The notes under the pieces: model-generated
Databases searched by the model: none
Seen by the model: the letters and a program-made list of their open reading frames with translations, nothing else
Told to the model about the DNA's origin: nothing
Position numbers and translations under genes: made by a program
Shown here: one piece after another, positions 18,561-46,797 of the stretch
Layout: every line of letters starts with the position of its first letter
How positions within the stretch are numbered: position 1 is the first letter of the stretch
Assembly (NCBI GenBank): GCA_030295235.1
Contig: AP026172.1
Span: 1 to 64,000 of the forward strand
Direction of reading: 5' to 3'
DNA length: 64,000 nt
Source of the DNA: Fistulifera solaris
Lineage: Eukaryota > Bacillariophyta > Bacillariophyceae > Naviculales > Stauroneidaceae

Positions 18561-21500
18561 TTAAGAGTATGTCATTAGAGAAGAAAGATGGCCTAGGTGC
18601 TTCTCGATCATGCAATTCTGCAGCGTGCGGGTACAGTCATCGATTGTCAAATCACACGACGATAATCCCAGCAGGGCAAATTCCCAGCTAGCACCGCTGC
18701 GAAACAAACACCAACAGTAACCGTTCTGGTAGGAAATGTGTCGAAATCCGGAAACGTACATCGAACTATCTCTGTCCCATCAGCAGAATTGAGCATATTA
18801 AACGCAGCAGACAAAATGTGGTCCGCTTGCTCGCCAAGGTACGGGCCCAGTGAAAAGCATATGTAATGAACATCAGTTACCGCTCTGGGTAAAGCGACTT
18901 GGAACCGATCTTCGACGTATGCAACAGAGAGATCTTCCGATTGAGAATTTTGACGATGTACAACGTCAAGAAGATGAGTATCTTTGTCCATCAGAAGGGC
19001 CAAGGGCAGAACATTTTCACCGTTGGCTACCTTCCAATACAATCCAATGCTAAGGTTTTCTGGTAGTGGTGCAGCATAGTCCTCGATTCGAATACTTTCG
19101 CCTGAGCGCATCAATGCTGTTCTCTCAGCTCGTCTAGATATGCGGGTTGCTGATCCCTGGGCAATCACCTGTATTTCCGGTTGCATACTGCCGAATTCGC
19201 GAAATCCTTGATAACCTGTCGCCATGACTTCTAGGTCCCACGTGTTTCTGTTCTTTGCTCGAGAAATCCGTAAGAGCACGACAGACGTGTCCGAAGGTGT
19301 AAGTTGAGGAACAAATCGACCAACACCTTGACCAGTAATAGCGTCTTTACACCGTATTTCTAACGACTCTATGCCAGAAAAGAGTTGTCTCTTGCGGTCA
19401 TTACAAGGCAGAGTGTTCCAACGTTCATTGGGACGTTGTCCAAATCGATCACTACCGTATCGATTGTCGGTTGACCCGGTAACTCTAACCGTTCAGGAAA
19501 AACAATAGAGCGGTTGGGATTAGTTCGGTTAGCAAAGTATACTGATTCATCCCACAAAATGAATCCATTGTCTAGATCAGTGGCTACGAAACTGGTCTCC
19601 AAGCACGGTCCCGACCTCCATGATAGGTCTAGCGCTATCTTCGAATGTTGTCTCAGAACAAAGACATGACCTGGCATCAAAACAGGATAGAACTTCGCAG
19701 TCATCTGGACCTTCACCTCTATTTGACCCGTAGCTCCGGCGCAATAAAATTCTCTCGCTTGCTCGGAACGCGCTGCCACAGTGTACCAACATGATACCTC
19801 CTCTTTCGGCAATGTTAGCATGATGGCCCCCATAAACGTTTCTTTGCTGATTTGACGATCATAAATACGAAGTTCTAGTTTCTCGCTCCTCTGCACAAGC
19901 TCTTTTGCCATATCCCCGCCAATTTCACAAAAGATTTCGTTTTCTTTCCATACAGGATTGCTCGATCGACGAGCAGGGCCCGTTTTACCACAAGACTTGC
20001 CACCGAGATACAGTTCAACAAGAGGTTCCGCTGACTTCATTTTACCAAATATGTTGCGATCCAGTGACACTAAACCACGGGCCTGTGAGACGGTAACGGT
20101 CAAAGTGGCGGATGACATGATCGAAGTCATTGCTTGTCCATGATTGTGGAATGGTATAGCACTACTTTCTTGCGAGTGAAAACTCGAAAGAGAGGACTGA
20201 CTAGCTTGAAGCCCAAATGAAGGGCTTTCGAACGACAATTCGGTGCTCCTTATCGACTCATTGGCGTCTTTCTCAACCGGAATAGTATTTTCAAGCTTGT
20301 TATTTACGGGCACCCCGCTTGTACCAACTCATATGTAGCTGAAACACCAAAGGAATGCATAGATTGTGAGTGAGGTTTTGTATAATCGACATCGATAGTT
20401 CCTGTTCTTGGCCCAACATAATGTAGCGACGATGACAACTGGCCAGAGGTCCGCTTTGTTAGTGCCATTGCTGGCAAGACGGGGGTCGTACTTGTGATGA
20501 CCGACGCCGGATTTTCTTTTCATTTAAGATGAAGTTCTTTGCGTCCTTCGCGAGTGATTGTTCAGCACTGACATTATTTTCGGTTCCTTTTGATGCAAGT
20601 ATGCGGCGCGGATGCACAACAGCGGTAACTTTTCGACTCCACAGAGATCTTTTGGTTTTAGAATCAGCACTCGACCCACTTGATGAGTTATATGTATGAA
20701 CTTCACACCCATTGTCCGCTTCAGATGTTAAGGTGTTTCGTTCGGAAATATTTCGTACCGTAAAAGTAGCTCCCAGTTTGGCGCAAGCGACTGCATCGTC
20801 AGAGGATTTCACACGAGAAGGAGGGGCGCAATTTCTATTGCTTGAAGTTACTTTATCAGCTGACAAACTCCACTTGGGCGTTTTTCGACGACCTCTATTA
20901 TTTTCATGGATCGGTGCACCTCCAATCGGTAGTACAGGATTAACCGTATAGCTAGCCGCTGACGGAATGCGATGAGTTTGTACCTCGTCATGCTCTGTCT
21001 CGCTAGTGTCAGAATCGCAATCACCGGACTTTTCATCCCTTTTGTCATCATCACCTTCCATTACAACGGTCAATGCTGTTTCGATAGCTGCAGGAGTCTC
21101 ATTGCTTGATTTGGGAATTAGTTTTGCTTGAAATAGTTTCGATTTGATGCTCGGTGATTCAATGTGATGGCCTGGCGGATCACGAAGCCGGTAATCTTGC
21201 CTTCCAGATCCCCTATCGCGACGCCCGCCACGTCGTTTTCCTGAAGATGAGATTAAATCATCAGAAGAGTTCCATCGTTTTAACGGCCTTCTTTTACGAC
21301 TCCCATTGTCGAACCCTTCATGAAAAGACCAGTTTAACAACTCTGGATTAGCCCATTGTACTCTTCTTTTTGTCGTTGCGTATCACTGTCTCTGCATGTG
21401 GGCCAGAACTGATCGCCGACTTGAATGTCATTTCTTGGCCCGTACTCATTATTATTCTTGGCCGCGAAGTATTCGAAGAAGAGTGCTGCCGCACCACGCT

Positions 21501-21851
21501 CACAACTTCGGCGCTAACTGCTTCACCCACAAACGATGATTGGTGCTCATCATTATGGACCATCACTTCGCTTTCCTCGCCCTCTGTGACTGATTGAGGT
21601 TGCGAGGAAATGTTCTCCTCTGGAGATTCGTAATCGTTCTCAAAACTATCTCCAGATTCCGTCTCAGACTCATCAGAATATGATCTTCCGTAAGATTCAT
21701 AGTCACTGTCGTAGCTTTCTTCTTCAGATTCCGAGTAAGGACTGTCGTGTAAATGCGGCTTCGAGGTAGAAAAGCTTCCGTCAATACTCGTAGGCTCACT
21801 TTCAGAATTATCAGACACCATTGCGTTGTCTTTTTCTTGCTTTTCCGTCAT
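18561..21851 (-). CDS. C2-TerD-TerD protein 1
   Basis: Large multidomain protein of about 1,095 residues. Its N-terminal third is low complexity: first acidic and Ser/Tyr-rich (21851-21350), then basic and Ser-rich. A C2 domain follows (about 20105-19740): LTVTVSQARGLVSLDRN, VELYLGGKSCGKT, SNPVWKE, LELRIYD, FMGAIML. Next is a TerD-like domain (about 19650-19180) with IALDLSW, an ILWDESVYFAN strand pair, VVIDLDNVP and a closing WDLEVMATGY. A second TerD-like domain (19110-18580) has LSIGLYWKV, LLMDKDTHLLDVV, DVHYICFSLGPY and WEFALLGL. No signal peptide or membrane span was seen. Frame changes near 21365, 20480, 20310, 19370 and 18680 mostly fall in homopolymers. The function is not known; a Ca2+/lipid-linked role is inferred from the C2 and TerD families. 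Closest in sequence to C2TerD-5. Confidence 0.78.
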
Positions 21852-22623
21852 GTGTAGATGCTTTTGAAGCCTTGAGGCGACTTTCCGTTATCTCTTGATC
21901 AATCTAGGCGCGTGTTGGCTCCTTTACCTGCTCTGGTAAGCGTCGTCGAAGGCCATGTCGTTGACTGTGCTTTTCATCGATCATGCGCGTTTATTGAGTC
22001 TGTAAACGAAAACGTTGCGACCCGTTTGAAACAAACAATAAAGAGCATAGAAGCAGGCAGGCAAAGGGGCTACACCGTATGTGAGAGTGCAGTGTTCAGT
22101 AAGCGTGTGAAAAGAAACGTCTTGGGTAAGCTGTGTTTCTGGAGGACTATTTCAGGTCGATGACAAAAATTGGAGTGACCAAAGTCCTGATTTTTTTTTG
22201 TAAAATTATCCATGGATAAGTTTGGGCTGCTAGCTTTTCTACAGGAGTGACAAGTACCTTGAGGATTAACTTAAGAGAGTTTTGGCCGAAATGACTGTCC
22301 TACGGAAATGGTTAATGGTTATGGTCATAGTGTGTGATAGAGACATTGTAAAATCGTGAATGAACTTGAATGAGTCCGGAGCGAAGGTGGCAAACTTGAT
22401 TATTCTGCGCGCGTTTAAAAAGCTGAAGCAAAACTGGTACTTGATACTGGTACAATGAATAGCACCTTAGCAGTGAAAATTTACTCCGTATTAGATCAGA
22501 AACACACATATTACGGTTTATAACTTGATTATATCCCTTCGAATCTTTTCTATTCCCAAAATCAACGCATATCGATGGCCTAATTTAATATTTTACTAGC
22601 CAAGGTAACTTCCTCTCGCGATG
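21852..22623. other. Intergenic region
   Basis: About 770 bp between the 5' end of C2TerD-1 and the 3' end of C2TerD-2, so it should hold the promoter of C2TerD-1. One TACTCCGTA motif lies at 22482. An 83-codon plus-strand ORF (21912) has no domain and is not called. Confidence 0.5.
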
Positions 22624-25600
22624 CTACCAAATACTGGCAACTTTCAGTAGAAAATCTTCAGGAATCATGATGCTTTCTTTTGGAACAGGCACCAGAGGAG
22701 GTAGTTTACAAGGTAGTTCAACAGGGAGATCTCCGGGGGTAGGTATTCGACTTCGTTTCACCTCTTCTCGGAAAGCGTGGGCAACTTCGCAGCTATTCGT
22801 CGCTTCTGTCGGACGTCCAATCACGTAAAACGTCCAGGGAGAGTCTACCGAGGATCGAAGAAAACACCCTATCAGAGCCCCCGTCCAAGTGGTAGGTTCT
22901 GGTACGTCATAACTTATGGCCACATGGTTATCGCCGCCCAGAATACTACAGTGCAAGCTCAATAAAGGATCAGCTACTTGTCCATTGTACGGACCCAAGG
23001 AAAAACAAACGAACATAGTTCGACTGGAAACGCGAGTCAAGTCTACTTCGACTTTGTCGCGGTAGCTTCCGACCGGAATGTCATCATCGTCCTCGCCTTC
23101 CCCTCCGCAATGCAGAACCGAGTTATCGCGACTGTTGGGATTTTCAAACAAGACCTCGTCTAGTTTGTGAAAGTCCCTGTCAAGCAATGTTATCACACTG
23201 TCAAGCCGCACTCGATAGTGCGTGCCCCATTGTATATGCACAGATATCTCATTCGCCTCCAAGTAATCTTCAACTCTGATGCAACTTCCTGGCCTTAGCC
23301 ACGCCGATCGCCGAGCCGGCGGAACCTTATCAGGAATCGTATGTCGACAGAAGGCATGAAGCTGCGGTATTAAGCTGCCGCATTCTCTTATAACAGGATA
23401 ACCTTGACCAATCGGACACAATTCCCATGAATGATCCTTTCGGGTAATCCGAAACAAAACCATACTGGTGTCACCTCGCGACAATTCTGGAATGAATCGA
23501 CATACTCCGTCATCGGAATCAGAATTAATGCAACGTACTTTTAGAACACCCAACGCACTTAGATCATCGCGAGGCATACATAAAACCATGAATAGCGACA
23601 TAATGCTCTTATGGACCTTCTCCAGTTCCAGTTGCCAAATTTCTTCGCCATCTGGACGGCAGTAAATCTTCTGGTCCGATCTCAGCACACCCCACTTCAC
23701 TATGCTTTGATTTGGGTTTACTGCCCGAGAGAAGTAGATGCTTTGATCTGGAATTACTTGGCCGACTTCGTCCAACGCCACACACGCTGACTCTGCCAAT
23801 ACATTCTGATACCCCCAGGAGAAGCCGATGGTTAAATGATTTGGCAATTGCAGCAAACTACCTGGCACTACATCCGGAGCAGCCGTTGCGATAAAGTCAA
23901 CAGAAACAAGGAGCTCTCCCGAAGCCCCAGGGCTGAACAAATCGTGATGTCGAGAACGCTTCATAACACGATACCATGTAGCGGACTGACTTCCTACAAC
24001 AGGAACTTGAACACACCCCATGAACTCATCATTCCCTAACATATCCTGGTCGCAAAGTCTCAACTCGATTTTTTCCCCAGAGCGAAGTAAGGCTCGAGCT
24101 TGGTCACAGCCTAGTTTTACCTGAAACATGCCCCGCTGGAATACTGGATTTAGTGTTTTATACACGGTATCACTTCTTCCGACACATTTCCAGTTGTAAT
24201 TTTCGAAAACAAAGGCTTTGACAAAGGATCGGACGTCGTAGGTCGTCCCAGTAAGTCTTTGTCCAGCGCTACCAAGTTTCGACCCTGCAAAACATGTATT
24301 AACATTGTGGCCGATCCCATCGTTCGACCAATTACTTTGCGAGCCACCGGCGCAACACTTTCGGCTTCAGTAAGGTCATCTGATATGACTGGGGTGCTTC
24401 TCGGCAGCTTAGCGATGGCTGCTCCTAATGAGGCTCGTCGATTCATACGACGCATCGCACTCGAACTAGCACCATGCGTTGTCGAGCCACGACGACTCGC
24501 CATTGGGGCAACCTGCGTACTAGTTGTTGCTTTTGGATTTACAGCAGTCGTTGCATCTGAAGTAAAAGTTTTGCGACAGAGATTACTTGTATTGGTTGCG
24601 GACATTCGCCTGGCAGCCGCTGCCACAGATGCTCGCCGTCCACCACGTCCAGCATCTGTTTCCGAGGTTCGGGATTGTTTCATAATTTTATTCCAGTCCG
24701 AGGCGGCATTTTCTTTTGCCTCTTTTTCTTTTTTCTTTTCCAAAATGGCTAGCATTCCCAAACTACTGTCTGAATTAGATCGTACAAGCACCGGCATACC
24801 ATCCCCCGACTGCTTACGATTACTTGCCCCGTTTTCTCTTGTCTCCAACATATCCATGAGATTCTTTGAAGAATTTCGACGCCGCGCTTTTGTCTCATCG
24901 TTTGGTTCTCCTAATCTTGGCCGAGAAGAGGATCGCTTAGGTGGCGATCCCTCCCCAACACGAAGCCGTCTCTCTTCATCACTGTGAGCACGTCGAGGCC
25001 GAGGCCGTGACGCCGGACGTACTTCACGCGGTTCATCCTCACCTAGAGCATTAATTCGTGACCGCGACGAGCTACGTTTTCTTCCTTCCTCGTTTCCTGA
25101 TTCTTTTGTTTTAGGACGACGACGAGCACCATCTTCAGGCCGGGGCTGTTGATCGGAAGACTTTGACTTTTGCGAAGAATCTTTACTGACATTCGAAAAT
25201 GAACTATCCGCCGCATTTGTGGTGAAGAAGGCTTTTTCCGTGCTGATTTTGATGACGAAATTAGATTTTCTAAACCGACATCATCGGTACTTTCGGAGTG
25301 TGTCGATGCTGTCAGAGAAGACGAAGTTCCCTTGCTTGATCTTTTTTGAGGTTTCTTGGCCTCTTCAGCTGTTGCATTTCTCTCTGAACGTTTTGGCTTA
25401 GAGCTAGAGCTGATTGTTTTTCGATTTGTGGGTGATAAATCAGTTTTGTCCTCATCGATCGTCGTTGACACTGGTCGAGTTGCCTTGCTTCGCTTCTCCG
25501 GACTATTGTGCAAAGATGTATGCAGTTCTTTATTCACCCGCAGCTTTCCAGTGTTCTTCAATAAATGAGGTGATGAATTTGATCGCGATACTCGCCTCCG

Positions 25601-25711
25601 AGGAGCTTTATCTTCATTATCAGTCTCAGGTTTGTCTCGAGGAGGTCGAGGACTTGAACGCTTCATCGGAGATATCATTTCGGCAGACGTCGAATCGCTG
25701 GCTGTCTTCAT
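22624..25711 (-). CDS. C2-TerD-TerD protein 2
   Basis: About 1,030 residues; the best-preserved member of the cluster. The N-terminal half is Ser/Arg/Pro-rich with many R-R-x-S type sites (25711-24320). The C2 domain (about 24290-23940) shows MLIHVLQGRNLVALDKDLLG, KTLNPVF, IELRLCDQD, EFMGCVQVP. TerD-1 (23870-23390): LTIGFSWGYQ, IYFSRAVNPNQSI, WQLELEKV, a strand with VLKVRCIN, then WELCPIGQGYP, very close to the W...GQG end of bacterial TerD. TerD-2 (23290-22770): ISVHIQW, ITLLDRDFHKLD, the acidic GGEGEDDDD loop, KVEVDLTRV, MFVCFSLG, TGALIGCFLR and WTFYVIG. The acidic loop corresponds to the Ca2+-binding region of bacterial TerD. Two frame changes (near 25200 and 24205) are explained by lost bases. 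It ends with a Pro-rich tail. Confidence 0.85.
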
Positions 25712-26645
25712 TGTGGCTTAATAATTCTCTATCTGTTTATTCCCAACTTTCTTCATTTAAGTTCTTTAAAAATAATAAAAAAAACAATGATGCTTCTCAC
25801 ACAAACCCGCGTCGACGAGAAGAAAGTCACTTGTTCTTATTATTTCTGCTTCTTCGCCCCTGTTTCGCTTTTCGGTTCCAAAACGGCAAACGGGCGAACT
25901 GGGACTATTGAGGAGAAGAGACATCACAACGCGGTCATCAATATAGGTCATACGGATCACATGGATGACCCAGAATTCTACAGGTACCAGGTACCGTACC
26001 TGGTAAATCTTAGTGCTCCCCTTCCTTTTGTAGTGACCTTGCGGTCTGTCGTCGTCGGTTATCCGAACGGTTCTCGCAATAAATATTTTAGTGGTTTTTA
26101 TCATACTGGTTAAAAAAAAAGTCAGTCTTCCTTGTTAAGTTCGACAAGTACATTCGACCGTGACTGAAGGAAATCCAGTCTTGGTTATCGCCGGCCAACA
26201 CTTTGATCTATAGTAGTTTGGACAGACCAACCACGAGAGTGCCATGGAAATTAATGCGGATGATAAATCTGACGAGAGACTAGACAATGGAGCAAATTAG
26301 CAGAACAAGTAAAGGATAAGCAACAGTCTATGCAAACCAAATATTCATGGATCACGACTAATGACTGCAATACAGTCTTAGTTACTATGATTTACACTTG
26401 ACCTATAAAGAAATGACTACGAACCAGAAGAATATTCGACGTAAGCAATTTAGCTGCTGATAATCAATATACAAGTATTGCTAACAGAAGATAAATAGAG
26501 CTTGCCGAGCCTTCTCAAAAACAAAAATAGCATTCTACGACGGAGAGTATTATGATTCATGGGTAAAATCCAGTCAGTACCTCTTGTCAAATAAGCCTAT
26601 AAGAACTAAATGCATTTAACTTCTTTGTACCCATATTCTCGCAGT
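25712..26645. other. Intergenic region with GTACC palindrome
   Basis: About 930 bp upstream of C2TerD-2. Holds a long GTAC palindrome tract, CAGGTACCAGGTACCGTACC-type, at about 25980-26007. Overlapping ORFs on both strands at 25766-26113 lack domains and are not called. Confidence 0.55.
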
Positions 26646-28919
26646 CTAGTTTCCTGAAGATGTTTTCATAGCTTTGAGCAATCGGTCAGCAAAAATAACT
26701 CCATCTGAACTATCTATATAAGATTTTGCTGGAACGTCAAACGGTTCGATCGCAAATAGGGACGACGGCTTCGGTGATGGGTGGAGATTGTAAACATAGT
26801 CGCACAATGCGTGTAATGAATTGCATTTCGTTGGCGAACCAATTGCCCAAAAGTCCCAATACGACTCATCTGACCGATTGAGACATCCGACCAGGATATG
26901 TTTGTAGCCACAACTGGGATCAATAGGGCAGTCCGTAAAGCGAATGAGCTGAGCTTCCGTTGCTGGATCCCAAACATGACAGGAGAATTCTGCAGTAGTA
27001 ATGAACGCTATTGTTTGAACTCTCATACCCACGCGGTGCAATTCCAGTTCAATCATTTTACGAGTCATTGTGGCACTGCGATCTCGCGACTTCGTGTGAT
27101 GTTGATCAACAACGTCAACGCGCTGACCCCGTTCATCTAAGAACAATGCCATGACATCACCTTTCTTGCATCGAATGTCTATGACCAAACTGATCAGTCG
27201 TGGACAGTAATCAAGCAAATGAATACATGTACCTGGTTGCATCCACGCTGTCCGTGAAACACTAAAAGGATCTTGTATGATATCGCACGCACACATGTGC
27301 AGCATTGGTATCAAAGCCCCAAGATCCGATATGATTGGAAAAGATTTCATTAAAGCCATCATTTCAAATCCATTGGATTCCAAGGTGATTCGACCAAGCA
27401 AGGTGATTTGACTCGCTGGAACTTTCATCCGACCAAGACCTATTCGCTCTTCCAAACGGCAGGTCGCAGGTTCTGACGAGTCATTCACCACAACAAAAAG
27501 AGAGCCGCTACCGACTCCGGGAGATTCTTCAAATTGCACCGCAATGAAGTAGATTGGCGTTCGAGTGATCCACTCTTGTTTGTATGAGACAAATCGCTCA
27601 AGCATTCATCCCACTGGACCAGCCCATGCTTCTTCGTTATTGCAATAGCCGAGATAGGAAGACTACAATGCCAGTAGCACGAGGTAGGTATATTCTTTAA
27701 AACCGAACCAGCGTCTAAGTCATGCATTGTAGACCCCTCTAGTGTAATATATGCACAGACTTCAAATGGTGAATCTTCTATCGAGAAAAACCAAGATGAT
27801 TCTGTGGTGTGCATAGGCAATGGTATCGACCCAAGAAATCGCGGACCATTGTAAATACGGAGCTCAATAGGTTTGTAATCCTCTTCATTTTTCAAAAATC
27901 CTTAGCCTCATCACACGACAGCGACATCTGTAATGTCACAGGTGAAACCGTGGTTCCCGCTATCGCTACTATCTGTGATACTTTTTCTGTCCACTCGTTG
28001 TGGGATGTCAAAGCGTACGCTTGATACCACAATTGTGACTTCGTCTGCATCCATTTTGAAGGGAAGAGCGCTTGTTGAAGTTCAATAGTGATTTGCAGTC
28101 CAGCTAGGGATCGTACAACAGTGCGGCGACGGGAAGGCGACTTTTTTGGACTAGAGGAGGAACTACTTTTCGTGAACTCCGTTGAGCATCATCACTGCTG
28201 TTTTGATGGCAACTCTCTGCACTGCTGCGATGCTGTCGAATCGACTGCTCTCCATGACTACCTTGAATGGATTGTGGTGTTTTGATTCTCTCCGACTCTG
28301 TACCAGCACTTTGGGATCTTTTAAGGATAGGCGGGGAAACAATTTGCAATTGTGCCGATGAATGCCGAGTCACCGGACGAGGTGTGACCGGAGTAGATGG
28401 ACCGGACGTCGATAGCGTGGGGACTTGGGCAACAACATCACCAACACGAGGCATACTAAGACGACGACGGGGACCGCCCGTGGATCGAATGGTACGACGA
28501 GAAAAGGGTGAGTCAGCAAGACTGCCGCGTCGGGGCGTGTGGTTACGCCCTGAATCAAAGCCACTCGCATTTCCTGTCGAGGAACGACGGTGCATCGATC
28601 GACGTGGCGACGAGCTGCGCCGCGGACTGACTCGTTCAGTCGCAAAAGTCGAATCGTGCGAGCCTCGGGTTGTACGTTGATGTCGCGAAATAGACGAACT
28701 CCTTCTTTGTGAACGTCTGCTCTCTGCTAAATCGCTTCTTTCCATGTCACTGCTACTTTTAGACGATATTGACCTCGATCGCGCAGCTCGTGACCTTTCT
28801 CTCCCAGGCTCAAATACTTCACCAGGCAGCCCGTCATCTTGGCACTCAATCGAAGTACTTCTCGGCTTTTTATCGGATTGATTCGAGCACAAAGCCGAAG
28901 GGCTTTCTTTGGCTGCCAT
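26646..28919 (-). CDS. C2-TerD-TerD protein 3 (divergent C2)
   Basis: About 755 residues. The N-terminus (28919-28110) is Ser/Arg-rich, with runs such as RRSSSPRRSMHRRSS and the motif RRRLSMPRVG. The C2 region (about 28060-27760) is recognisable by position and by LQITIELQQALFP, EWTEKVSQ, IELRIYNG and FLGSIPL, but has lost much of the usual consensus. TerD-1 (27700-27340) is truncated relative to its paralogues. TerD-2 (27260-26790) keeps ISLVIDIRC, ALFLDERGQRVDVVD, IELELHRVG, HILVGCLNRSD and WDFWAIG. Frame changes near 28130 (A run), 27900 (T run) and 27560 split it into three ORFs. The weak C2 suggests relaxed or altered Ca2+/lipid binding. Start: first ATG before the basic tail. Confidence 0.72.
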
Positions 28920-29470
28920 GTATTCTCTAGCTGATCATCTTTCACCATATCGGTCGACACCATCTCTTCAACCTCAATTCAGAAGCGCTTTGCCAGCAAA
29001 GAAAAACTGTTGCAAGAAAAATTATTGGTGATGCCAATAGAAAGAAAAGCCGAGAACAAGATTGATGTAAAACCAAACATCGACAAAGACTCTCTTCTTT
29101 CTTTCACAGGTCACCACAACTCGAAACCATTTAAAATTCAAATCTTAATAATGTCTCATCACGTCTCGAAGCATTATCAAATGCTCTACTCTCACGATCG
29201 CGAGACTGCGCAACCAAGGAACACCGCAGAAGCACAGTGGCTAGAAAAGTACTATTAATTTATCTTCTGAAGGCCGCGAGCATAAGGCCCACACCGTAGC
29301 CGATGGCAAACGTTAGTCGTGTCGTACTCGTGAAATGTTAGGCCGTTCATCTACACAAATCCGACGTGTCTAAAGAGTTTAGCCAAGAGTCGATTAAGTC
29401 GAGAAGTTTCTTTAGAATAGTAGGTTATTAACAATTACTAGCTTTAATATCACAAGGAGGGTTTAGTTCG
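28920..29470. other. Intergenic region
   Basis: About 550 bp between C2TerD-3 and the Ser/Arg-rich gene A, both reading left. An 82-codon plus-strand ORF (29010) has no domain. Nothing else was seen. Confidence 0.5.
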
Positions 29471-31584: not shown

Positions 31585-33961
31585 ATGTCTTCTCAAACAG
31601 TCTCAAGACGGCCACGGCCTCGACGACATCCAGTTCAAAAGAGATCGCAACATGTACCCGGAAATAACAGCGGTCACGAAGACATCACTGGCGATATTAG
31701 TCCTAAAGATCGGCACGAGGACGCAGCATTAGCATCGGGAGTTACACACACCTCCCCTCGAAGACGTCTTGTAAGTCATCATCACAGTCTTCGTCGGAAA
31801 TTTGATCGAAGTCCTGTTCGAAAAACGCATCATGGGACGCCAAAGCTGCCGCTGCAAGGATCATCGTTGCCACCGCCGCCTTCCTTGTCGCCGAAGTTTT
31901 CGTCCAAAACAAACGATAAAAGCTGCGACCATTCTCATAGCCGTGAAGAAAACAAATCGACAATTGCGACTGATCGACACAAAGTACGACGTCGTCCTGC
32001 TATCGGTAAACTAACAATTCGCGTCGCACAATTAAAAGCAGAAAATTTGATGCCTGTCACTTATCAAGTGCCCCTGGAGATTAAAGCGGATTCGGTCAAG
32101 AATATAGGAGAGACACTTGTCAATACACTCAAACAACCAACAAATCTAAAACGTGCTTTACGCAAAGCTCCAGATGCTCTCATGAAGACGCCAGCAGCTG
32201 TTGTTTCCAAAACATCCGATGCCCTTAAAAAATCTGCCGACACCTTTGTGCAACTGCATTATTTTGATTATGGTTGGAAGTCCGGCCCGAAAAGCTCTAT
32301 ACAAAAGCGAACCTGTTCACCTGAATGGTCGGACGAAGTGCTTGAACTGCAATTGGGGGCCGATTCAGCGGAAGCGTTGTTAAAAAGCGGAGAGCGTTTA
32401 GAGTTACGACTATGGAGTCATGATAATGTCGTGGGGGATTCGTTTTTAGGGAGCATACAAATACCATTGCTGCCCAAAGAGAAGGAGAAAAGGGCAACGT
32501 ACCGTGTTTTGAAGCGATCGCCCAATGATTCCTCGTTACAAAGTCACCACGCGACCGGAGAGTTGACTGCGTACGTTTCCTTGCACGCCGAAACCATGGT
32601 TGATCTGCATCGCGGAGAAAGTTTTCCTTTGCAGCAATCAAAGATCACTCTGGGCGTTTCTTGTCGTAAGAACTGTTTTGAGAGCAGTATGGTCGTTCTA
32701 GATCAAGAGGGTTTTGAGAGCAGTATGGTCGTTCTAGATCGAGAGGGTACTGTTATGTGGGACGAATGTGCTTATCACGATCACTGCGTTACAGACGCTA
32801 TAAGCATTGCTTACAACGATTCCGAATCAAAAGATCTGCACTATTATCACATGGATCGTTGCACCATTGATGTAGATTTACATAACTTGCCAGACAAAGC
32901 GGTAGCGCTGTTTCTTATTGTTTATGTGCCTTCCGAGGAAGCTCCACTCCAGCTAAGAATTTTAGAAACGGAATCCAGGACAGCACTAGCTCGCTACCTG
33001 CCCCACTTAGTGAAAGCGTCGCACACTGTCATCTTGACGAGACTAGCGCGGCACTCTGAGGGTTGGTTTATGGCACCGATTGGCGAGAGTTTTGTCCAAA
33101 TACAAGATTTTGGCAATTTAGTCCCCGTTATACATAGCTTTGCGCAGGATTTGATTACAAAACATCTCTGCTCGCATAATATTTCTGCCACGGCGGTGCT
33201 TCGTCGACAGAGACCGATGCTTTTAGGAAATGGCAATGAGGAGTGGAAGCTTCGTATATCTTGGGAGGAAAAACAAAATGACCACACAAATATGAACTTC
33301 GTCACGAAAGCTTTGCTACTGGACGGGGATTATCACACTATGGACCACGTCGATGCAAACCTACAGAGCTCTCTGAGAGGTGGCGTTGTATACATCAAAG
33401 GATGGCGTCCGAAACGCTTTGAAAAATTTGAGGACTTTCTTGTTGACAAAGTCGAGGCTATCAACATCCACGATGTGAATAACGACACGGGCGATTTTAC
33501 TGACGAATTTGCTCTGCATCTTTCCAAATTGTCAGGACGTGTACGTCATGTCTGCTTCAATATTTTATTGGCTAAGAAAGGAGAGCAAGCTGGTAGGAGC
33601 AGCATAGAAAAGGTGACCCTGCTCGTACACGACGAGTTGAGCAACACCGAGTTCGCGCGTTTTGTGTCGCCGGTCCGCAATGATTCAGGTCTGCTTGTCG
33701 TTTGTTTTTCTCGATGTGATATGGACAGTCAGGGAAGGTGATTGGGTTTTTGAAGTTGCAGCGATGGCAGCTGGTCCGTCTGATGTGGGGAAGCAATGGA
33801 AATGGTTCTTCGGAGAGAGTGGACACACTGAGCCGTATGCGCTCGTTCCCCAACAAAGCGCCAATTTAGATATGCTGTCCAGAGAGATTCCCTCTTTCAA
33901 TGTTGTAAACGCGACGCCAAAAATCCTTGCCGATGAAACTTTACTCCAATATCGGATCTAG
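31585..33961 (+). CDS. C2-TerD-TerD protein 4
   Basis: About 790 residues, first of the rightward genes. Basic Ser/Arg/His/Pro N-terminus to about 31990; then a C2 domain (about 32010-32580) starting KLTIRVAQLKAENLMP, interrupted by an amphipathic Lys/Ala/Leu-rich insert (32090-32230), and resuming with FVQLHYFDYGW, SPEWSDEVLEL, LELRLWSHD, FLGSIQIPLL. TerD-1 (32630-33120): ITLGVSCR, VMWDECAYHD, CTIDVDLHNLP, ALFLIVYVP, GWFMAPIGES. TerD-2 (33220-33820): LRISWEE, ALLLDGDYHTMDHVD, DEFALHLSKL, RHVCFNILL and, after a frame change near 33740, WVFEVAAMA. A 36-base in-frame tandem repeat (32675-32746) lies in TerD-1. The ATG at 31585 is the first in frame. Confidence 0.8.
32675..32746 (+). repeat. 36-bp in-frame tandem repeat
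   Basis: Two adjacent 36-base copies differing at one base (GATCAAGAGG versus GATCGAGAGG) inside the first TerD-like domain of C2TerD-4. Each encodes FESSMVVLD plus three residues. The paralogues have one copy, so this is a recent internal duplication or an assembly duplication. Confidence 0.92.
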
Positions 33962-36982: not shown

Positions 36983-37387
36983 ACAAAGATAGAAGAAACG
37001 CATATATTCGTCTGAGGCGTCAGGAACAATGGAGACAATTTGAAATGAGCAAATGACGGTGAATGGATTCTAAGCTTTCGAATGCAATGAGGATGAGATC
37101 TCCGCGCCCCATGCTTAGCCAGTAGTACTGTCCAAGTGTGAATTCTGCAAATCATTCACGAGTTTATTGTTTTACTGTTTTTTTATAGTGTACCCGGTAC
37201 AGAGCCTAAAAAAGAGCCGTTTCAACTGTGATTGCTTCGATAAATGGATCGTTCCTTTTTTCCCGCTTTTTACTTGCAACAACATGCAACGCGATCGTCG
37301 CATCAATCTCTCGATTGCGAGAGCGGCGGCTCCGGCATTATCTCTCTCTCCCTTTGCGGTCTGCAATCCTTACATTTCAACTCAATC
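36983..37387. other. Intergenic region
   Basis: About 405 bp with one TACCCGGTAC palindrome (37191). Open frames on both strands have no domain. Presumably the promoter of the next gene. Confidence 0.5.
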
Positions 37388-39266
37388 ATGAAGAATACAC
37401 AACAAGACGATGTCTCCTCGTCGGCCGGATCCAGCGTCGACGAAGACGTGTTTGCGGGAAACGATTGGTCCCCAGAATCATTGCATTCTTCAACGACGAC
37501 AACGAAGCCTCAGCAGCAACAGAATCAGCGACACAGCAAACAAAATGCAAAGACGACCGACTCATCCTTGTCTTCGAAATCTCGCAAGGTTACACGAACT
37601 CATTCGCAACTTCGTAATCTGGTCGTGAAATTGCTTTCTCCCGTTTTACGTTCGTCGAACGCAACACAAAGTTATCCCGCCGGTCCCGACAGGCCTCTGA
37701 AACGCACTGTGAAGGAAACGCAACAACCTCTGGAGAAGAAAGATAAAAATCGTCGACCTTGTAGCGGAGATTCAGCACCGCGACGTTCTGCGCCTCCCCA
37801 GAGTCGTCAACTTGCGCTTGCTGAAGAAAAGAAACAGTCACGGCGCGACTTGACGGCAAAGCAGCAGCACAAATCGATTGGTCGACTTTCGATTAGCAAC
37901 ACACCTCATCCCGAAGAAAATGTAGATACGAAACGAAAATCGATAGCAAATGGGACATCGGAGGGGGAAGAATACGGGTCGTCCTCGTACGTCATTTGTG
38001 ACGCAAGCCAGTGTCAAAAGAATGGGAACGGTACCTGCATTAAAGACTGTTTCGAAAAAGGACGTACCTCGATCCGATGAGATGATGAAACAATTCAAGC
38101 AATCGCCGAAACAAACTTCGAGACGTATAGAGCAGGGACTCGCCGCAGCAACTTCTATTCGACGCAGCCCTTCACCCAACAAAAAGCAAGCTTCGGATCG
38201 TAGACTCACCTTTGCCAAGACTCCGTCTCGTCGAACGATCAAAGAAGGACAACACGAGCCAGGTCAATCACGTCGAAAATTGGTAGAAGGCAGTGCTGCT
38301 CGGAGTGAACGCAACCTTATTCGCACGATGCCTTCGGCTGCACAGATCCCAACCCCGCCAATAACCGATACAGTAGATAATCGAGCAATACGGAAAGGAT
38401 TAGACGAAAGAACGAGTATCGCGAATAAATCTCGAAAGGAACTGATTCAGATGGCATCGCAACGACGCTTTTCGTCTTCCGGTACGGAAGATGTGTCGCC
38501 TCGGGAGCCGTCTCGGAGAGCCTTGACGAAAAGCCCCATTGCAAAAGATCGTGGAGCAAGGAAAGCGGTGCCATCCGTCAGCGATAAGCAACCGGATATT
38601 GAATGGAAGCCCGAAATCGAAGAGAGTTCCGGCCAAACAGGGTCTCCCGCACGCTCGAATGAATTGAAAATTGTTCAGGGAAGCGTCGTATCGCCCGATT
38701 CTCCCCCTCGTCAGGCACAACGGGTTTCCATGAGAACGATTGGTGCATCCTCTCTTTCGTTGCGCCAGATTCCGCAGATAATAGAGGAGAGTCTCTCCAG
38801 CGCGAGCCGTAGCAAAAGCAAAAAAGATCTTTCCCGCCGTGTTTTGCTGAGCTCGACGGGAAAATCTGAAGCCAGTTTCAAGTCGCAGCGTTCGGTGACC
38901 AAGAAGGGAAAAGATAGCAACCAAGTTGCTCGTCGAGACGTCGCTCAGCCACCGCGCGGCGCTCTCAAGAGAACTGACCCAGTGAAGAAGGAATCGACAC
39001 CGAAGCTGCTTCGCACAGAAGGTACGGCTATGTCGAGATCTTCTTCGAAAAAGAACGTAACAAATCGTACTGCTCGGCGCAGGTCTATCGACCTAAAGAC
39101 TAAATCTCCTCGGCGTCGTTCTGTCTCACCAACGGAACCTACCGAAAGCTCAGACTTTGACTACAGCCAGACAAAAATATACCCCTATACCGCCTCACCT
39201 ACAAGAATGATATCTTTCGCTCCGAACGTGTCCTCGAGAAGGAATATGAACTGGATCCAATTTTGA
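37388..39266 (+). CDS. Ser/Arg-rich protein D
   Basis: About 626 residues across a frame change near 37950-38080. Starts MKNTQQDDVSSSAGSSVDED with FAGNDWSPES, then Gln/Thr/Ser-rich, then long basic Ser/Arg/Lys-rich sequence with kinase-like sites (RRSPSPNKK, RRFSSSG, RRRSIDLK, SPRRRRSV-like). A central stretch, QRVSMRTIGASSLSLRQIPQIIEES, faintly echoes the RRLSMPKVG motif of proteins A and B. No globular domain was recognised. The acidic N-terminus followed by a basic tail is shared with B and C. Confidence 0.58.
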
Positions 39267-39624
39267 ACAAGGTAAAATAGTTAGTCTGACAACTACGCTC
39301 AGTAACCTCGTAATTTTAGCTCTCAACTCATTGCATCAATAGTTTATGTATTTATCTTGTATCGTTGTTGCTGATTACAATTAAGGGTACCTGGTAGCAA
39401 TGAATTAGCGTCAATTTCCTTTCATCGTTTTGAATCTTTAGCTCGCTTTGGCTTAAAAATTTTACACTATATCCCTTCTTGTAGTTTCGTTCGTCACACC
39501 GGTCATAATGCATCTTCCGAACAAAAGTCTCGTCCATTTTCGTTCTTCACTCAACTTAACAGCAGCAGGGAGGAGGATGAAATTCTTTCTCGAGCTCCTT
39601 CTTGCCCATAATACAGTTAATAAC
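39267..39624. other. Intergenic region
   Basis: About 358 bp with GGGTACCTGGTAG at about 39386. No gene is supported. Confidence 0.45.
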
Positions 39625-42173
39625 ATGGGAGAAGTCGACATTTCCGGTAGTCCCAGTGCAAAGGCAACAGTTCGGTTAGGGACCGCCATAACGACACGAT
39701 CTTCTCCGAATGTATTGATCGACGATGCAACGCTCGACACGATATTCTGTCCAGTTGATGGTCTTTCGATTGCTTCCACTCTTGACGATGTATTCTGCTC
39801 AGCTTTAACGGATGATTCGATCGTCGATTCGCCCACGCAGCGACGGCGGAAGCAGCTTGGCGAAGTAAAAGCCCTCAGCAACGAGATCGACAATCTCTTG
39901 TTAAGAAAGACAATAATAGACTCGTTTCACCGAGAAGTGCAAGCCGGCGTTCTTCGAAAAACCTTTCAAAGCAACGCAAAACAGAGTTGAAGAGCAGCCC
40001 GCGGTATCCAAGCGCGTCGAAACAGTTAATCATCGAACAGGAGTCGTTAAAGTCGCCTCATACTCAAGATGAAATGATTAAGAGAAATTTACCTTTGAGA
40101 AGTGTTTCAAAGTCGCGAATACAGAATCTCGAAACAAATGACGAAGACCTAGGGAAAACAACGAAAAGACGAAGTTTCGTTTTACAAAGAAAAGGTGCCA
40201 GAGAGCTACAGAACGATATACTCGTCAACAACTCAGACCCAAAACGAAGTTCGTCACGAAAGTCAGCAAGTAGGAATCTTGAAATGCGGATCGAACGGTC
40301 GGTTAGTTCACATCGACGAGGGAGTTCCGAACCACGGATAAGGGATCTGAGGCAACAAAATAAAGATGACTTGGTCGAAGGTGGATGTCGGTCGTCACGA
40401 ACACGGAGTTTAGAAAGGAAGGTCGAACAGTTACGAAGCGTTCATAAGAGAGGTGATGCTGACCCTGCTGAGAAACTAAACAAGGACAAAAGTGAAGATA
40501 GGCCAATGACCCCCAAACGCTTCAAAAACATTCCCGGGCGAAGCAGCTCAGCGTCGGGGCTAGAGAGATTAACTGGGCAAACAAGAAGAGCGCTTAACAA
40601 ACGAAGTACCTCAGATTCTCGAATCTCACAGATCGATCATCACCACGAAATTTATGAAGTTAAGGAGGACGTAAAGAAGAAAGTGTCGTCTCAGACCATC
40701 CGTTCGATACGGCGGAAAGAACGCTTGCAAAGTCCGTCTGGACGCTCGCGGCAATCACTGAAGAGAAGGAATTCCAATTCACGGATTGAAATTACCGAGG
40801 ACAAACTTTTAAAGGGCATTAAAGAGTCTTCAGAGCGCGCAGCTAGATCCCCAAATCGAAATAGATTAAAAGCGAAAGTTGACAATGGAGTTACAAGATC
40901 CGAACCTACAAGAAGCTCACACAGACGAAGAACTTCAAAATCTCCTGTAAAAGATTCCTCTTTACAACCAAAGAACGACGCCAAAGAAAAATCGCAACGG
41001 ACACGCGGCTCACATTGTTCAAAAAGTTTCCATGGACATATCAAAGAATCAATAAAACAAGAAAGTGAGCGACGGAGCATTTCACAGGATAAAAGGGAAA
41101 AGTTAGAACGCCGCGGCTCAAAGTTAAGGATTGTTCATCACGACGGTACGGACAAAGGTGACAGTTCAAGGAGTTCTGACGCGCGAGACAGCTCGATGTC
41201 TACTAACCAAAATTTGAAGAGAGAAGGGCGCAAAGTGTCAACTAAAGACACAGTGGTCCGTTCCGAATCTTCGCCGCACACACCTTCATCGGACGTAAAT
41301 TATGTCAGCCCGAAGACATGGACTGTAAACAATTTCCAAACGGATAAAGTTTACCTAATACGGCCCTTTTGGCGAAAAAACAATCCAACAAAAGGGCGCA
41401 ACACCAATTTTGAGTTAGTGGCGTCACAAGCACTACAGCATCCCCCACAGACTTTTGAGGATGAACCAGAGAATCATAACCAACATCACGTTACAGAGTC
41501 TACCATGAAAAGGACGTCTTTTCCCATGCTGTACTCAAGCTTGCAACCGCTTTCCGGGGAAATTGTTGGGGACGCGAAACTCTTACAAAATGAGTTGGTT
41601 GTGACGCGAGAGTATTTCCCCACTTCCTTGGAAGCATTTGAAGCAGCAATAACGCCGAGAAAAGAGGAAAAATTGGCACTTCTACAAACTGACGAAATTG
41701 ATGAGCATCACACGCCTGCGTCTCCACGTAGGCAAATCAAGAGTTTAAGTCCGACGAGATTTTTCAAGAAGGCATCTAAACGATTGAGTAGCGCGGTGGC
41801 GCAATTATCTGGACGCGTGTTCCCAGCAGGTACAAGCGATTCGTCGAGTCGAAAAGAAACATACCAAGAGGCGTCTGTCGCTCAGAACAAGGTAGATGTA
41901 GTCCGACAGGAAGCTCCTCGTGAGTCTGCTGTCCAACCTAAAAAATCTTATGGAAATCTTGCTCAAGACATGTACGGCAATGCCAAAGAAGACAGCGCTA
42001 AGGAGGACCCGATCACGTCGAAAGAGGGTGAAGGAAGAACCAACGCAAAGCAATCAACACTTTCACGGACCAGGGCCCGCAGTAGATCGGCGGGTCGTTT
42101 GCAGCTAGAAAATGATAATGCAAGGGCTTCCATTAAACGGACGAACAACGGCAAAAGTGTGCCCCCGCATTAG
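39625..42173 (+). CDS. Ser/Arg-rich protein E
   Basis: About 850 residues, the largest of the domain-less genes. The N-terminal 120 residues (from MGEVDISGSPSAKATVRLG) include a possible short helix (LGEVKALSNEIDNLLLRK). One A missing from the AAAA run near 39980 separates it from a long ORF rich in Ser, Arg, Lys and Glu with repeated RSSSR, RRGSSEPR, RRRTSKSP sites. A less biased segment around 41290-41650 (VNYVSPKTWTVNNFQTDKVYL ... EYFPTSLEAFEAAITP) may be a small folded part. The end is again RTRARSRSAGRL. Unrecognised. Size and position suggest the N-terminal half of a C2-TerD gene that lacks the second half, but no C2/TerD sequence was seen downstream before the next gene. Confidence 0.58.
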
Positions 42174-43883
42174 CTTCAAAATCCTTCCGTGACCTCGACT
42201 TATAGTGTCGAGCTTCTTTTTAGATGACATATGGGTCTGATGCAGGATCAAACCTTACATTACTAGAAGGCGGCCACCATATTCTGGAAGTCAGCTGGTG
42301 CGCTGCTCTTTGTTTTCCTCCTTCACTGATTAAGAAGAAGAATGTAAAATGATTGATTATAAACAAAAACACGTGGAGCATGGTGTTTTGAAAATTTGTT
42401 TATGGGACTTGCCACAGAGCGATTTTGTTCTAAAGGTTACAAAAAAGGCTACCGTCGCACGGGCTTGATCTGTTTTATTTATTTTACATAAGGCTCTCAT
42501 CACGAAAACTCATTAGCTATAAACATCTCCCAACTATGATTTTAAAACAGATGTTTAGAAAAGCCAACGAAATAAACTTGTTGAATGAATCGATTGTGCC
42601 GTGGACTCTCTCGCCATGATTCTGCTCTTTCATTATCAAACCGGCTTCCTACATGAAATGTAAGCGTCTGCATCGCACAGTTTGTGAGAGCGGTCAGCAA
42701 CCTGTTCCATTGCGATTGTGTGAAACAAGCCATCACATCCGTTCCCAACTCGAAATGTTTTAGGTGCGGGTAACCTGGCATCCACTTCAGGAGAGCCGAC
42801 GTAACCGAAATCATTAATGTTTTGTTTCCTTGTAAAATCTAATACGTCTGACAATACTGCTGCTGGGTGTAAAGCAACAACGAACCCGCCACTAATTCGA
42901 AGAGAGATCACATGACAATCTGATAGCGTTTTGCATGAATCATGTACGGAACCGGTAAATTGTTTGAATGAAAAGTGCAGATTCGATCGAATGAATCAGT
43001 CGACAACAATGTGTGTTAACGAAGTAAAGAAGTCGTTTGAAGTATGTCATCGAAACTTAAAGATGTGTTCGATTCGTAGATATACCAAAAAGTGTTGTTT
43101 GTTGTGCCAAGCTGTTTAGGAAAATGCTTTCAGCCTGGCGATTGGGAAAAGCCGTACCAGTACGTCTATGGAATACAAAGACGGTCGTAGACCTGGCCCA
43201 GATTGAGAACGACTCTGTTGATTGCTTTCCCGCTGTGGACTGTCTGATAGCGAGAGAGTCTTTTCATCTACACCATCTTTTTGACCTCGTTGCTCAACGG
43301 TCGCTCCTTTCTTTGGGTTCTTTTCTTTTTTTTCTTTTGACGACTCCTCTAAAGGAGTATGTGTAATATACTCCTTTGCATATACTCCTTTGACTCCTCT
43401 GTCCTCTGTGATTGTTGTGGTTTGTGGTCGAAAATCGACTGTCGCAGCTTTAGGTCTGTTATGTCACTTATAAGATCCTTTCTAATGGCAGCTCGGGACT
43501 GGACGCAACGGCTTTTCTCTTTTTCAAACCCGTACCAGGTACTTTGTGTATAAACGAAAAAGGTCATCCGCTTCTCCGGTTCTCCACAAATTTCGGCGAA
43601 CGCGACGAGAAAACAACTTTTCTGGGACAATTCGAGAACAGAAGTTGACAGTTGACCATAAAGTCCGTGTCACGAGACAAGAGCTGGATGGCTGCTTTCG
43701 GTCTTCTGTCTTTCCGTCGTTATTATCTCACCCAATGCATACTGCAACCGGAGTGTCAGATTTTTACGTTTTCATCGGAACACACAGTAAAGTAAGTAGT
43801 TTTCGTGTCGACACAGCAATAAAAACGAAAAAAGAAGGATGTTACTAAGCTTTTAAGATGGAATGGCAATAATCACTACAGCA
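42174..43883. other. Long intergenic region
   Basis: About 1.7 kb. A repeated ACTCCTTT/ACTCCTCT cluster lies near 43345-43395 and a GTACCAGGTAC palindrome at 43532. Two overlapping minus-strand ORFs at 42542-42911 show coding-like stretches (KWMPGYPHLKHFELG) but no full domain. Presumably the distal part is the promoter of C2TerD-5. Confidence 0.5.
42542..42911 (-). pseudogene. Possible gene fragment
   Basis: Two overlapping minus-strand frames. One has LLKWMPGYPHLKHFELG followed by WNRLLTALTNCAMQTLTFH, a pattern of spaced Leu and Asn reminiscent of leucine-rich repeats. The other covers the upstream part. No start context or complete domain was seen; it may be chance or a remnant. Confidence 0.2.
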
Positions 43884-46797
43884 ATGTCTTCTTCGAACGG
43901 ATCAAAAATGTGAAGCAAGAGGAGCAGATCCGCCGGGAAGATCGAAAAAAGCCAATCATAACAGCGGAAATACTGACGAAGCTTCTCCTGTTGAATTACC
44001 AAACAATGAGTTTTTCTCAGAGCGGCGTTCCAAGAGTCGAGGACGCTCCTTGGGGCGATCTACCAGTAGCAGGGGATTGCATAGAGCAACTAGCAGTCGC
44101 TCCCTTGCCAAATCTCAGCGTAGCGAGTCTCTGGCAGCGTCTAAGGATAAACATAGGAGTGAAGGTAACGAAAGATCAAAGAGCTTAGGAAGAGGAGAAA
44201 GAGGAAGATCGAAGAGCCGAGGAAAAAAGAAGGCCGCGACAGAAGACGGCAGATCAAAAAGTCGAAGACGGAAATCAGAACGCGGCGAAAGGTCTAAAAG
44301 CCGCGGAAGATTACAGCAGAAAGGGTTTCAAGAAACGATAACGTCCCCTCATCCTGACGGAAATGGAGATCAGCTACCAAAAAGAGATCGCACTCAGAAG
44401 ATAGAGGTGTCATCATCTAAAGCGGCACAGTCACCGCGTCCATCGATTTTAGAAAAGGCTCCGAGAACCCAGTCTGGTTCGAATCGTAGCACATCTCCAT
44501 CCATACAAAAACTCGATGCGCCTTTTATTCCACCAATTCGAAATGTTGAGCCAATTCCAACGTTATCAAAAGAAGCTGTTAACAAGTTACCGGCCGAAGC
44601 AAGCATTTCCTCTAAACCAGCTGCCGTGAATCGAGGTGTAAGGCGGAGTACCTCGGCACATGCCGACATGAAGACGGCAATAAGGTCCCCAAAGCGATCT
44701 CAGTCGACCGATGAGATCAAGATATCTCAAAGAAAAAAAGCTGCCAACGCCCCCTTTTTTCTGAAAGGGAACTCACCCCAGATGTACAAGTCAAAACGTT
44801 GCCAAGACAACGTCTTAGCAATTCAAATGCTTTTGACAGAGTAAGTCTTCTGAAAGACTTTCAGTCGACGGATGATAATCCTTTTCACCAAAGCAAGCGA
44901 TCGATAAGGCTGAGTATAATACCGTCACATATACCCAATCCACAAAAGTTGCAGTGAAGAGTTATTCTGATCTAACGAAGTCCAGTTATCAAACGCGACA
45001 TTCGCCGAAGACCAATACGCAAACCTTGGTGGCATCCAGCGTCGTTGTTTGTAACTGTTTCGGAAGGTCGTATGTTGGTCCCTATGCAGCGCAACATTCT
45101 TGGTTTCAAAACTTACTCTCATCCTTACATTGAGGTATACGTTGACGGGAAACTGCTTGGTAAAACAAAACATGCTTACCGAACCGTCAATCCTGCATGG
45201 AAGAGCGGCAACTCATTCTCTACTCATTATGACGCTATAACTGCCAAAGAAAAGGCTTCTCGCAGCGAAAGAATAGAATTACATGTTCATCATCTTGGAA
45301 AGGGCGGTGTTGCTGCATTTATGGGAGCTGTTCGCATTCCCCTCTTAACACCACGGTCGAGCAGAGTGGTACCCTGTGCAACAACGTTCTGCTCTGGATA
45401 GTGGATTGTATTGCATTAATGCCTCGGGAGAGCTGCAAGTGCAAGTGAATTTTACTGCGCATTCTTATCCAGAATTGAAGCCTGGTCACGAGTTACTGAT
45501 CTCTGGGAATGCTGAGATATCACTCAATCTATCTTGGTCCAGTGATTCTTCCCTTGAAACGAGCTGCGTCGCCCTTGACGGAAAGAATGGACCGCGTACT
45601 TTGGAAAGAATCGCGTTTACTTTGCAAATCGGATTAATATGAGTAAATCTGTTGCACGACCGGAGGTGCAAGATCACAAGGATATGGCGACACGAGATTC
45701 GTTGTTATTTGATTTTGGAATGGTGCCGGGAGAATGTTGCAGCTTTTTTTGTTGTTTTGACGATTCGCGACAAATCATTCACGCTGTCTGACTTACAATC
45801 CTTTCAGCTTTCTGTCAGGAATGAGTCGACACGCTGGAGGAATAGGGCACATATCGGTCAATTTAAGCTTCTAAGGAAACATCAGCTATTTTGTTGCGCA
45901 TCACTCGTTCGACTCTGGGGACAAGCAGCACGTGGAAAATTGCAACAATAATCAAAGGATATAAAGTATTTCGCGAGTTTGGAAGCCTTTTACCCCAACT
46001 TCAAGAGCTCTCGGGTGATATTCTGCCAAATATAGGAACCCCTACTGGACGAACAGCATTAATGCGATGTGGCGATAGCCTTCAACTTTTGGATTACGTA
46101 CCGGATCATCTACCAAGCAAATTGGTGACTGGCTTCTTCTGGAAGGTCAAAAACAGGGAACCATTAAAAGTCGCAGTATCTCTCCCTCGACGAAGAGTTG
46201 CGGAGGTAGACGCAATTCATAGGACACAACCAGGGTCACTCACGAGCCAAGGTGTTCTATACTCCGGAGGAAACGAAGAATCACGAGAAGTTCGAGGTAG
46301 CCTTTGCCCAACTATCATCAGATGTACATTACATCTGCTTTGTGTTAGGTCCTTGTAGCCGTCAGAAAGTTGATGATATCGAAAACGTGGCTTGTCATAT
46401 TGTAAACTCCGGCTTTGGGGGCTGAGTTAGCGCGATGTACATTGTCAAGCTTCGAAAGCGTTCCCACAAAATCAATCGGCCTAGGATGCTTCTACAAGAC
46501 GGAAAAGGATGGAGCTTTACCATTCTCGGTTTATGTTCCACTGATACTACCTTTGCGGGACGTCTGAGCGAGCTTCGCAATCACATATTCGAAAATCCCC
46601 TGGAACCCGCCGTCTCACTACCTCACCCTCGACTTCTAAAAAGCGTTATGCCGCCAGCCATTCCACTGCCACCGCCAAGACAACTAGTGTTTTCGGACAT
46701 CGTGGAAGCACATCACAAATTCAACCACGGACAAAATGTATCTACCTCTACTCTACTTACAGTACGCAGACAATCAGAGAAACAATATAAGATCTAG
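43884..46797 (+). CDS. C2-TerD-TerD protein 5 (most broken)
   Basis: About 970 residues if joined. The start ATG at 43884 (MSSSNG) leads, through frame changes, into a Ser/Arg/Lys-rich N-terminus with repeated RSKSRG and ERSKSLGRG units (44050-44330), then a Pro/Ser stretch. C2 (about 45035-45460): LFVTVSEGRMLVPMQRN, YIEVYVDGKLLGKT, NPAWKSG, IELHVHHLG, FMGAVRIPLL. TerD-1 (45490-45990): ISLNLSWSSD, NRVYFANR and a WKIATIIKGY end. TerD-2 (46060-46610): KLVTGFFWKV, DVHYICFVLGP, WSFTILGL. It ends with a Pro-rich tail like C2TerD-2. Seven or more frame changes occur, more than elsewhere in the cluster, including one in-frame TAG near 46425. Real decay is therefore more plausible here. Closest paralogue is C2TerD-1 at the opposite end of the cluster. 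Confidence 0.7.

Follow-up and report, generated by a model that had tools for sequence, protein, structure and literature searches.

Five clustered genes at a chromosome end

We analysed a 64,000-nucleotide window of the genome of the diatom Fistulifera solaris (NCBI GenBank assembly GCA_030295235.1, contig AP026172.1, positions 1 to 64,000), which contains five paralogous genes, here called g1 to g5. All five encode a low-complexity tail, a C2 domain and two TerD domains, in that order. The contig, C20, has 937,901 bases and belongs to an assembly of 51.7 Mb in 61 contigs; the window is its left end. Because C20 begins with AACCCT telomere-type repeats (positions 1-96), the cluster is subtelomeric.

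Gene g1 (18561..21851, minus strand) encodes a C2 domain at 20106-19783, a first TerD domain (TerD1) at about 19569-19205 that spans a frame change, and a second (TerD2) at about 19200-18700. The best preserved gene, g2 (22624..25711, minus strand), has a basic Ser-rich tail, C2 at about 24297-23977 with a frame change within it, TerD1 at 23835-23398 and TerD2 at about 23262-22810. The most diverged, g3 (26646..28919, minus strand), combines a basic Arg/Ser tail with a C2-like region and two weak TerD-like domains. In g4 (31585..33961, plus strand), a basic tail precedes C2 (32221-32487), TerD1 (32602-33093) and a weak TerD2 (about 33103-33738). TerD1 of g4 contains an in-frame 36-bp tandem duplication at 32675-32748 that is absent from its homoeolog. 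Finally, g5 (43884..46797, plus strand) has C2 at 45042-45359 and TerD pieces at about 45358-46700, with many frame breaks in both subgenomes.

An earlier note, made from the sequence alone, had described five tandem genes with a shared disordered basic tail. Its coordinates hold for g1-g4, whose ATG starts and stop ends agree with them, but g5 is scattered over many frames, the strand changes between g3 and g4, and about 10 kb separates g4 from g5. The tails are indeed of low complexity, and those of g2-g5 are basic, but that of g1 begins acidic (net -30 over 234 aa in the homoeologous copy). Tail disorder was assessed from composition only, without a disorder predictor.

F. solaris is described as allodiploid in the available text of PMC13276009, and 42 homoeologous chromosome pairs are given in that of PMC5935921. 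The 23-base guide targets for apt and dde in the former source each have exactly two matches in the assembly, on paired contigs (C38/C39 and C7/C8, respectively; backward control, 0), and these matches establish F. solaris as the host. The window has its homoeolog in contig C19. Of the 24 aligned blocks longer than 150 bp that the two share, 22 are collinear (78-92% identity) and the other two are repeat cross-matches (74-75%). The homoeolog of g1 lies at C19:15846-19160, and that of g2 includes a 709-aa frame (L002). A further contig, C51 (49,208 bases; L034-L038), is a redundant, 98-99% identical duplicate of the same end of C20. Over 36.5 kb the two differ by 352 gap positions and 63 mismatches, and C51 is probably an unmerged, error-rich contig.

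Evidence for the C2 and TerD domains

Searches with the Pfam C2 (PF00168) and TerD (PF02342) models identified C2 in g1, g2, g4 and g5, and TerD in g2, g4 and the homoeolog of g1. PF02342 scores were 55.2 bits for g2, 53.8 for the g1 homoeolog and 28.4 for g4, all of which exceed the curated cut-off of 25.3 bits. Both domains are found in g2 (TerD E = 8e-15, in two stretches; C2 E = 4e-7) and in g4 (C2 E = 5e-8; TerD E = 1.3e-6). In g1, C2 is clear (E = 1e-10) and TerD is divided between two frames with sub-cut-off matches (E = 0.0085 and 1.6e-4); its homoeolog matches TerD in two stretches (E = 2.1e-14). A C2 match was found in g5 (E = 1.5e-9), and TerD was not found by Pfam in the g5 frames tested. 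The whole 822-aa frame of g3 gave 0 Pfam matches at E ≤ 1 and thus no Pfam C2. In isolation, TerD2 falls at or under the Pfam cut-off (g2, 1.2e-5; g1 on C19, 3.2e-5; g4, 0.025; g3 on C19, 0.03), and TerD1 of g3 has no Pfam match. Four proteins searched against NCBIfam had no match there.

We also used a family profile of 591 positions, built from 113 database members with the window genes left out. It matches pieces of all five genes (g2, E = 1e-77; g4, 2e-44; g1, 5e-39; g5, 8e-19; g3, 4e-9) and gave 0 matches against reversed and shuffled copies of 1179 open reading frames (ORFs). The match to the C19 copy of g2 extends over positions 11-574 (E = 2e-91). The TerD domains of g3 and g5 are under the Pfam cut-off and were recovered by this profile only. 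The g3 match spans mainly TerD2; its C2 and TerD1 were assigned by alignment with the paralogues.

An AlphaFold prediction of g2 made with the family rows has a predicted local distance difference test (pLDDT) score of 85 and matches known TerD and C2 structures, whereas a prediction from the single sequence was unusable (pLDDT 33.5). The predicted TerD beta-sandwich and C2 fold were modelled for g2 only. Pfam, the family profile and this model confirm the earlier observation of five paralogues that join a C2 domain to two consecutive TerD-like domains, most weakly for g3. They also bear out a local expansion in a eukaryote, here a stramenopile.

A wider family with the same architecture

We identified the wider family with a profile (A2) built from six open frames of four cluster genes. 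Among 8000 scored candidates, it recovered P0001 (612 aa, E = 1e-54, 95% coverage), which has Pfam C2 and TerD domains, and, from bacteria, the single TerD protein P0002 (E = 3e-4). When a single sequence was used to search the protein database, the 8000 scored candidates included no match. With P0001 as the query, 283 proteins matched at E ≤ 1e-10, and PF00168 and PF02342 occur together in at least 119 of them (119 of the 120 among the matches listed, P0001 included).

Five of these 120 carry an organism name, and all five are diatoms, from four genera: Seminavis robusta (P0034, P0101), Skeletonema potamos (P0109), Odontella aurita (P0076) and Chaetoceros debilis (P0121). The others are metagenome or unnamed transcriptome entries. 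The assignment of Chaetoceros debilis was confirmed by its taxid, and we take Skeletonema potamos and Odontella aurita to be diatoms as well. Seminavis robusta is called a diatom in the title of PMC7335047. To judge from these four genera, the C2-TerD-TerD family is probably diatom-wide, and the fusion is not confined to this locus. Some members go by the database names ‘tellurium resistance protein TerZ’ or ‘stress response protein SCP2’.

The fusion had been put forward as undescribed. We found no description of it in the literature searched, although the 2012 Ter review by Anantharaman et al., which lies outside that literature, may mention eukaryotic TerD fusions. In the available part of a paper on Leishmania and trypanosome FAZ proteins, TerD and C2 domains sit in different proteins. 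The fusion is nevertheless well represented in databases, as the proteins above attest. None of the 29 pattern matches in genome contigs or of the 3 and 46 in viral contigs was confirmed as a prokaryotic or viral source of the fusion, and phages yielded none either; these scans would have revealed close relatives only.

The F. solaris genes are divergent members of this family. Listed family proteins are at least 43% identical to P0001; between g2 and the 113 family rows, identity is 22-30%. In those rows, the first C2 Asp is preceded by a median of 25 and a maximum of 93 residues, compared with about 200-580 residues ahead of C2 in the window genes (from coordinates). In this sample, long tails therefore characterise the F. 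solaris branch.

Within the F. solaris genome, a Pfam TerD search gave three matches among four candidates, confined to the cluster and its homoeolog, and searches with two F. solaris queries found matches solely on C19, C20 and C51. The Seminavis protein P0034 has the g2 homoeolog as its top match (27% identity). No canonical copy with Ca2+ ligands was found in F. solaris by these searches, which give lower bounds in an assembly that may be incomplete.

In a tree, the six F. solaris rows (from g1-g4; g5 left out) cluster together, apart from the 113 family rows, with a support of 0.998 and a stem of 0.64. Branches are long, with 2.9-4.1 substitutions per site between paralogues. Each gene has a homoeolog, and the duplications are therefore older than the subgenome split.

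Calcium-site positions in the family and in the cluster

In Klebsiella TerD (KP-TerD), residues 40, 41, 42, 78, 79 and 89 are assigned to the Ca1 site and residues 29, 82, 84 and 88 to Ca2 (Pan et al., 2011, as given in the available text of PMC8779313). The 2kxt sequence reads DLD at residues 40-42 and DE at residues 88-89, and the Asp in its HTGD motif is residue 78. This mapping presumes equal numbering in chain and paper; residue 29 would be a Trp preceding an Asp and is thus ambiguous.

Asp40, Asp42, Asp78 and Glu89 are invariant in both TerD domains of all 113 family rows, and 99 of the 113 are acidic at all 15 counted C2 and TerD positions. In the cluster, the eight TerD domains encoded by g1-g4 all have another residue or a gap in place of Asp40 and Asp78. 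Of the 10 acidic TerD positions, g2 keeps five, g1 four, g4 two and g3 one. The five acidic C2 positions are all kept in g2 (one Asp to Glu), making it the only gene with a fully acidic C2 site; g1 keeps three, g4 two, and g3 and g5 none. As aligned, the g1-g4 domains are TerD domains by homology that appear to lack the Ca2+-ligand set of KP-TerD, and Ca2+ control through TerD in the cluster genes seems doubtful.

These counts bear on the hypothesis, made in the earlier note, that the genes form a Ca2+-dependent, membrane-recruited TerD system. If all five proteins worked in this way, with C2 and TerD both responsive to Ca2+, the shared architecture, the acidic positions of most family rows and the intact C2 site of g2 would be explained. 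The loss of the Asp40/Asp78 pair throughout g1-g4 and the depleted C2 sites of g1, g3, g4 and g5 would not, and we consider this account unlikely for the cluster. It fits the wider family better.

Frame breaks and selection

Frame changes occur inside nine of the 10 copies of the genes (five genes on C20 and on C19). The exception is g3 on C19, a single 822-aa frame, which suggests that the cluster genes are probably intronless. Introns were considered as an explanation for these changes; overlapping neighbour frames, the open g3 on C19 and single-base gaps at breaks argue otherwise. GT-AG candidates exist where frames meet, and one of them, in g5, has a complete donor match; by themselves they exclude nothing. 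Many frame breaks coincide with single-base gaps relative to the C19 homoeolog.

Counted in MAFFT alignments (blastn inflates gaps in diverged stretches), frame-shifting gaps private to C20 number 0 in g2-g4, where C51 shares them, and two in g1. Another 7-20 per gene in g1-g4 occur on C51 only. Since the g2-g4 gaps are common to C20 and C51, these breaks either exist in the genome or reflect systematic assembly errors. The ubiquitin-activating enzyme E1 domains at 3059-6062 are likewise split into several overlapping frames in both subgenomes, which favours assembly errors, although introns in E1 are possible. In g5, 12 breaks are private to C20 and 22 to C19. By blastn, g5 has 14.4 gaps per kb, E1 9.2 and g1 8.5, which weighs against setting g5 sharply apart.

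Between homoeologs, the ratio of nonsynonymous to synonymous substitutions (dN/dS) in the cores is 0.08 for g2, 0.15-0.23 for g1, 0.23 for g4 and 0.20-0.38 for g3. The tails give 0.17-0.49 and g5 0.13-0.58. Comparison genes include a cellulase (0.11), a metallo-beta-lactamase (0.14), E1 (0.09 and 0.21), a chromodomain ORF (0.22) and two unknown ORFs (0.38, 0.42); out-of-frame controls gave 2.1 and 3.9. The g1-g4 cores are under purifying selection. These values indicate that g2 is constrained like the enzymes and the other cluster genes less so. With its many private breaks and dN/dS of up to 0.58, g5 is probably decaying.

The cluster as a whole could instead consist of decaying pseudogenes with real frame breaks. 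The number of broken copies, the sharing of the g2-g4 breaks by the redundant C51, and the subgenome-specific breaks and high dN/dS of g5 are consistent with this, but the open g3 frame on C19, the low dN/dS of the g1-g4 cores and the similarly split E1 are not. Moreover, C51 and C20 differ mainly by gaps, the pattern expected if the assembly retains indel errors. We give this explanation little weight.

Probable function and significance

We favour, with modest confidence, the interpretation that the cluster is a subtelomeric, fast-evolving branch of the family, in which a probable Ca2+ sensor has turned into diverging membrane-associated scaffolds or adaptors. Here membrane binding, Ca2+ sensing and the scaffold role are all inferred. 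An ordinary family member, with C2 and both TerD beta-sandwiches carrying conserved acidic Ca2+ ligands, would most likely sense Ca2+ in the cytosol and dock on a membrane upon a Ca2+ rise; three acidic Ca2+ sites in a C2-containing chain suggest such triggered docking for the family. In F. solaris, duplication of an ancestral gene preceded the subgenome split; the genes carry a long low-complexity N-terminal tail, mostly basic and Ser-rich, and the Asp pair of the TerD Ca1 site was lost. The combination of lost ligands, a retained fold and purifying selection suggests that these proteins are scaffolds no longer reading Ca2+ through TerD. Recruitment by Ca2+ through C2 may persist in g2. The g1, g3 and g4 products probably bind independently of Ca2+, perhaps helped by their charged tails, and g5 would be decaying.

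Several points weigh against this interpretation. Long branches can group unrelated lineages, and ligand columns beside gaps depend on the alignment. With half of its acidic TerD positions kept and an acidic run by the second TerD loop, g2 may retain residual metal binding in TerD. The 3′ end of g5 has a dN/dS of 0.13, unlike decay, and given the frame breaks in most copies, genes besides g5 could be broken.

TerD proteins are common in bacteria, and their function is poorly understood. A C2 fusion in several diatom genera would tie TerD to membranes and Ca2+ signalling, and offers a testable handle on TerD function in genetically modifiable algae. Set against a conserved family that probably binds Ca2+, the F. 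solaris cluster would amount to a natural experiment in ligand loss. More tentatively, it is possible that diatoms share an undescribed three-module Ca2+ sensor (C2 and two TerD domains) in which a bacterial stress module was joined to eukaryotic Ca2+ and membrane signalling, and that its sites were dismantled in F. solaris during multiplication at a chromosome end, with Ca2+-independent tailed scaffolds replacing the sensor.

Neighbouring genes

No terA, terB, terC or TelA neighbours were found among 20 Pfam-scanned non-cluster ORFs (the window holds 127 ORFs of at least 100 aa). Between g4 and g5, a 785-aa frame (39816-42173) without a Pfam match lies in a stretch of strong AT skew and is 67% identical between homoeologs. 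Further along, Pfam identified a GH5 cellulase domain and two CBM6 matches in a 688-aa frame (52978-55044), and the domains of a Ty1/copia-type gag-integrase frame (58708-60720).

Comparison with known systems

The C2 domain resembles those of ferlins, synaptotagmins and E-Syt2 in fold and, in g2, in its acidic loop residues. We know of no TerD partner for those C2 domains. Eukaryotic TerD domains also occur in Dictyostelium CapA and CapB and in trypanosome FAZ28 and FAZ30; the available portions of the sources mention no C2 fusion for these proteins and place C2 in other FAZ proteins.

The g2 model further matches a tandem TerD-like fold in Chlamydomonas radial spoke 1 (PDB 7JTK chain A), an axonemal protein, over 348 aligned residues. 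Residue 14 of the chain and residue 133 of the model mark the start of the match, which leaves C2 outside it. The tandem TerD domains could accordingly be a protein-protein module of a cytoskeletal or structural scaffold, as in the axonemal complex, with membrane and Ca2+ binding secondary. Likeness of fold does not show function, however, C2 has no part in the match, and F. solaris is a pennate diatom whose vegetative cells are not known to bear flagella; we regard such a role as improbable and retain the membrane-associated scaffold as our preferred interpretation. Separately, 7JTK chain A indicates that eukaryotic TerD tandems may be commoner than annotation suggests.

Both TerD domains share the beta-sandwich of bacterial TerD (Klebsiella KP-TerD, 2KXT/2KXV; Streptomyces, 3IBZ). 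Bacterial TerD is a single domain of about 190 aa with two Ca2+ sites, whereas the window genes encode two degenerate domains joined to C2. The closest parallels are the named diatom family members, which have the C2-TerD-TerD core in the same order. They lack the long tail and mostly keep the Ca2+ ligands, whereas g2 is tailed and has lost TerD ligands.

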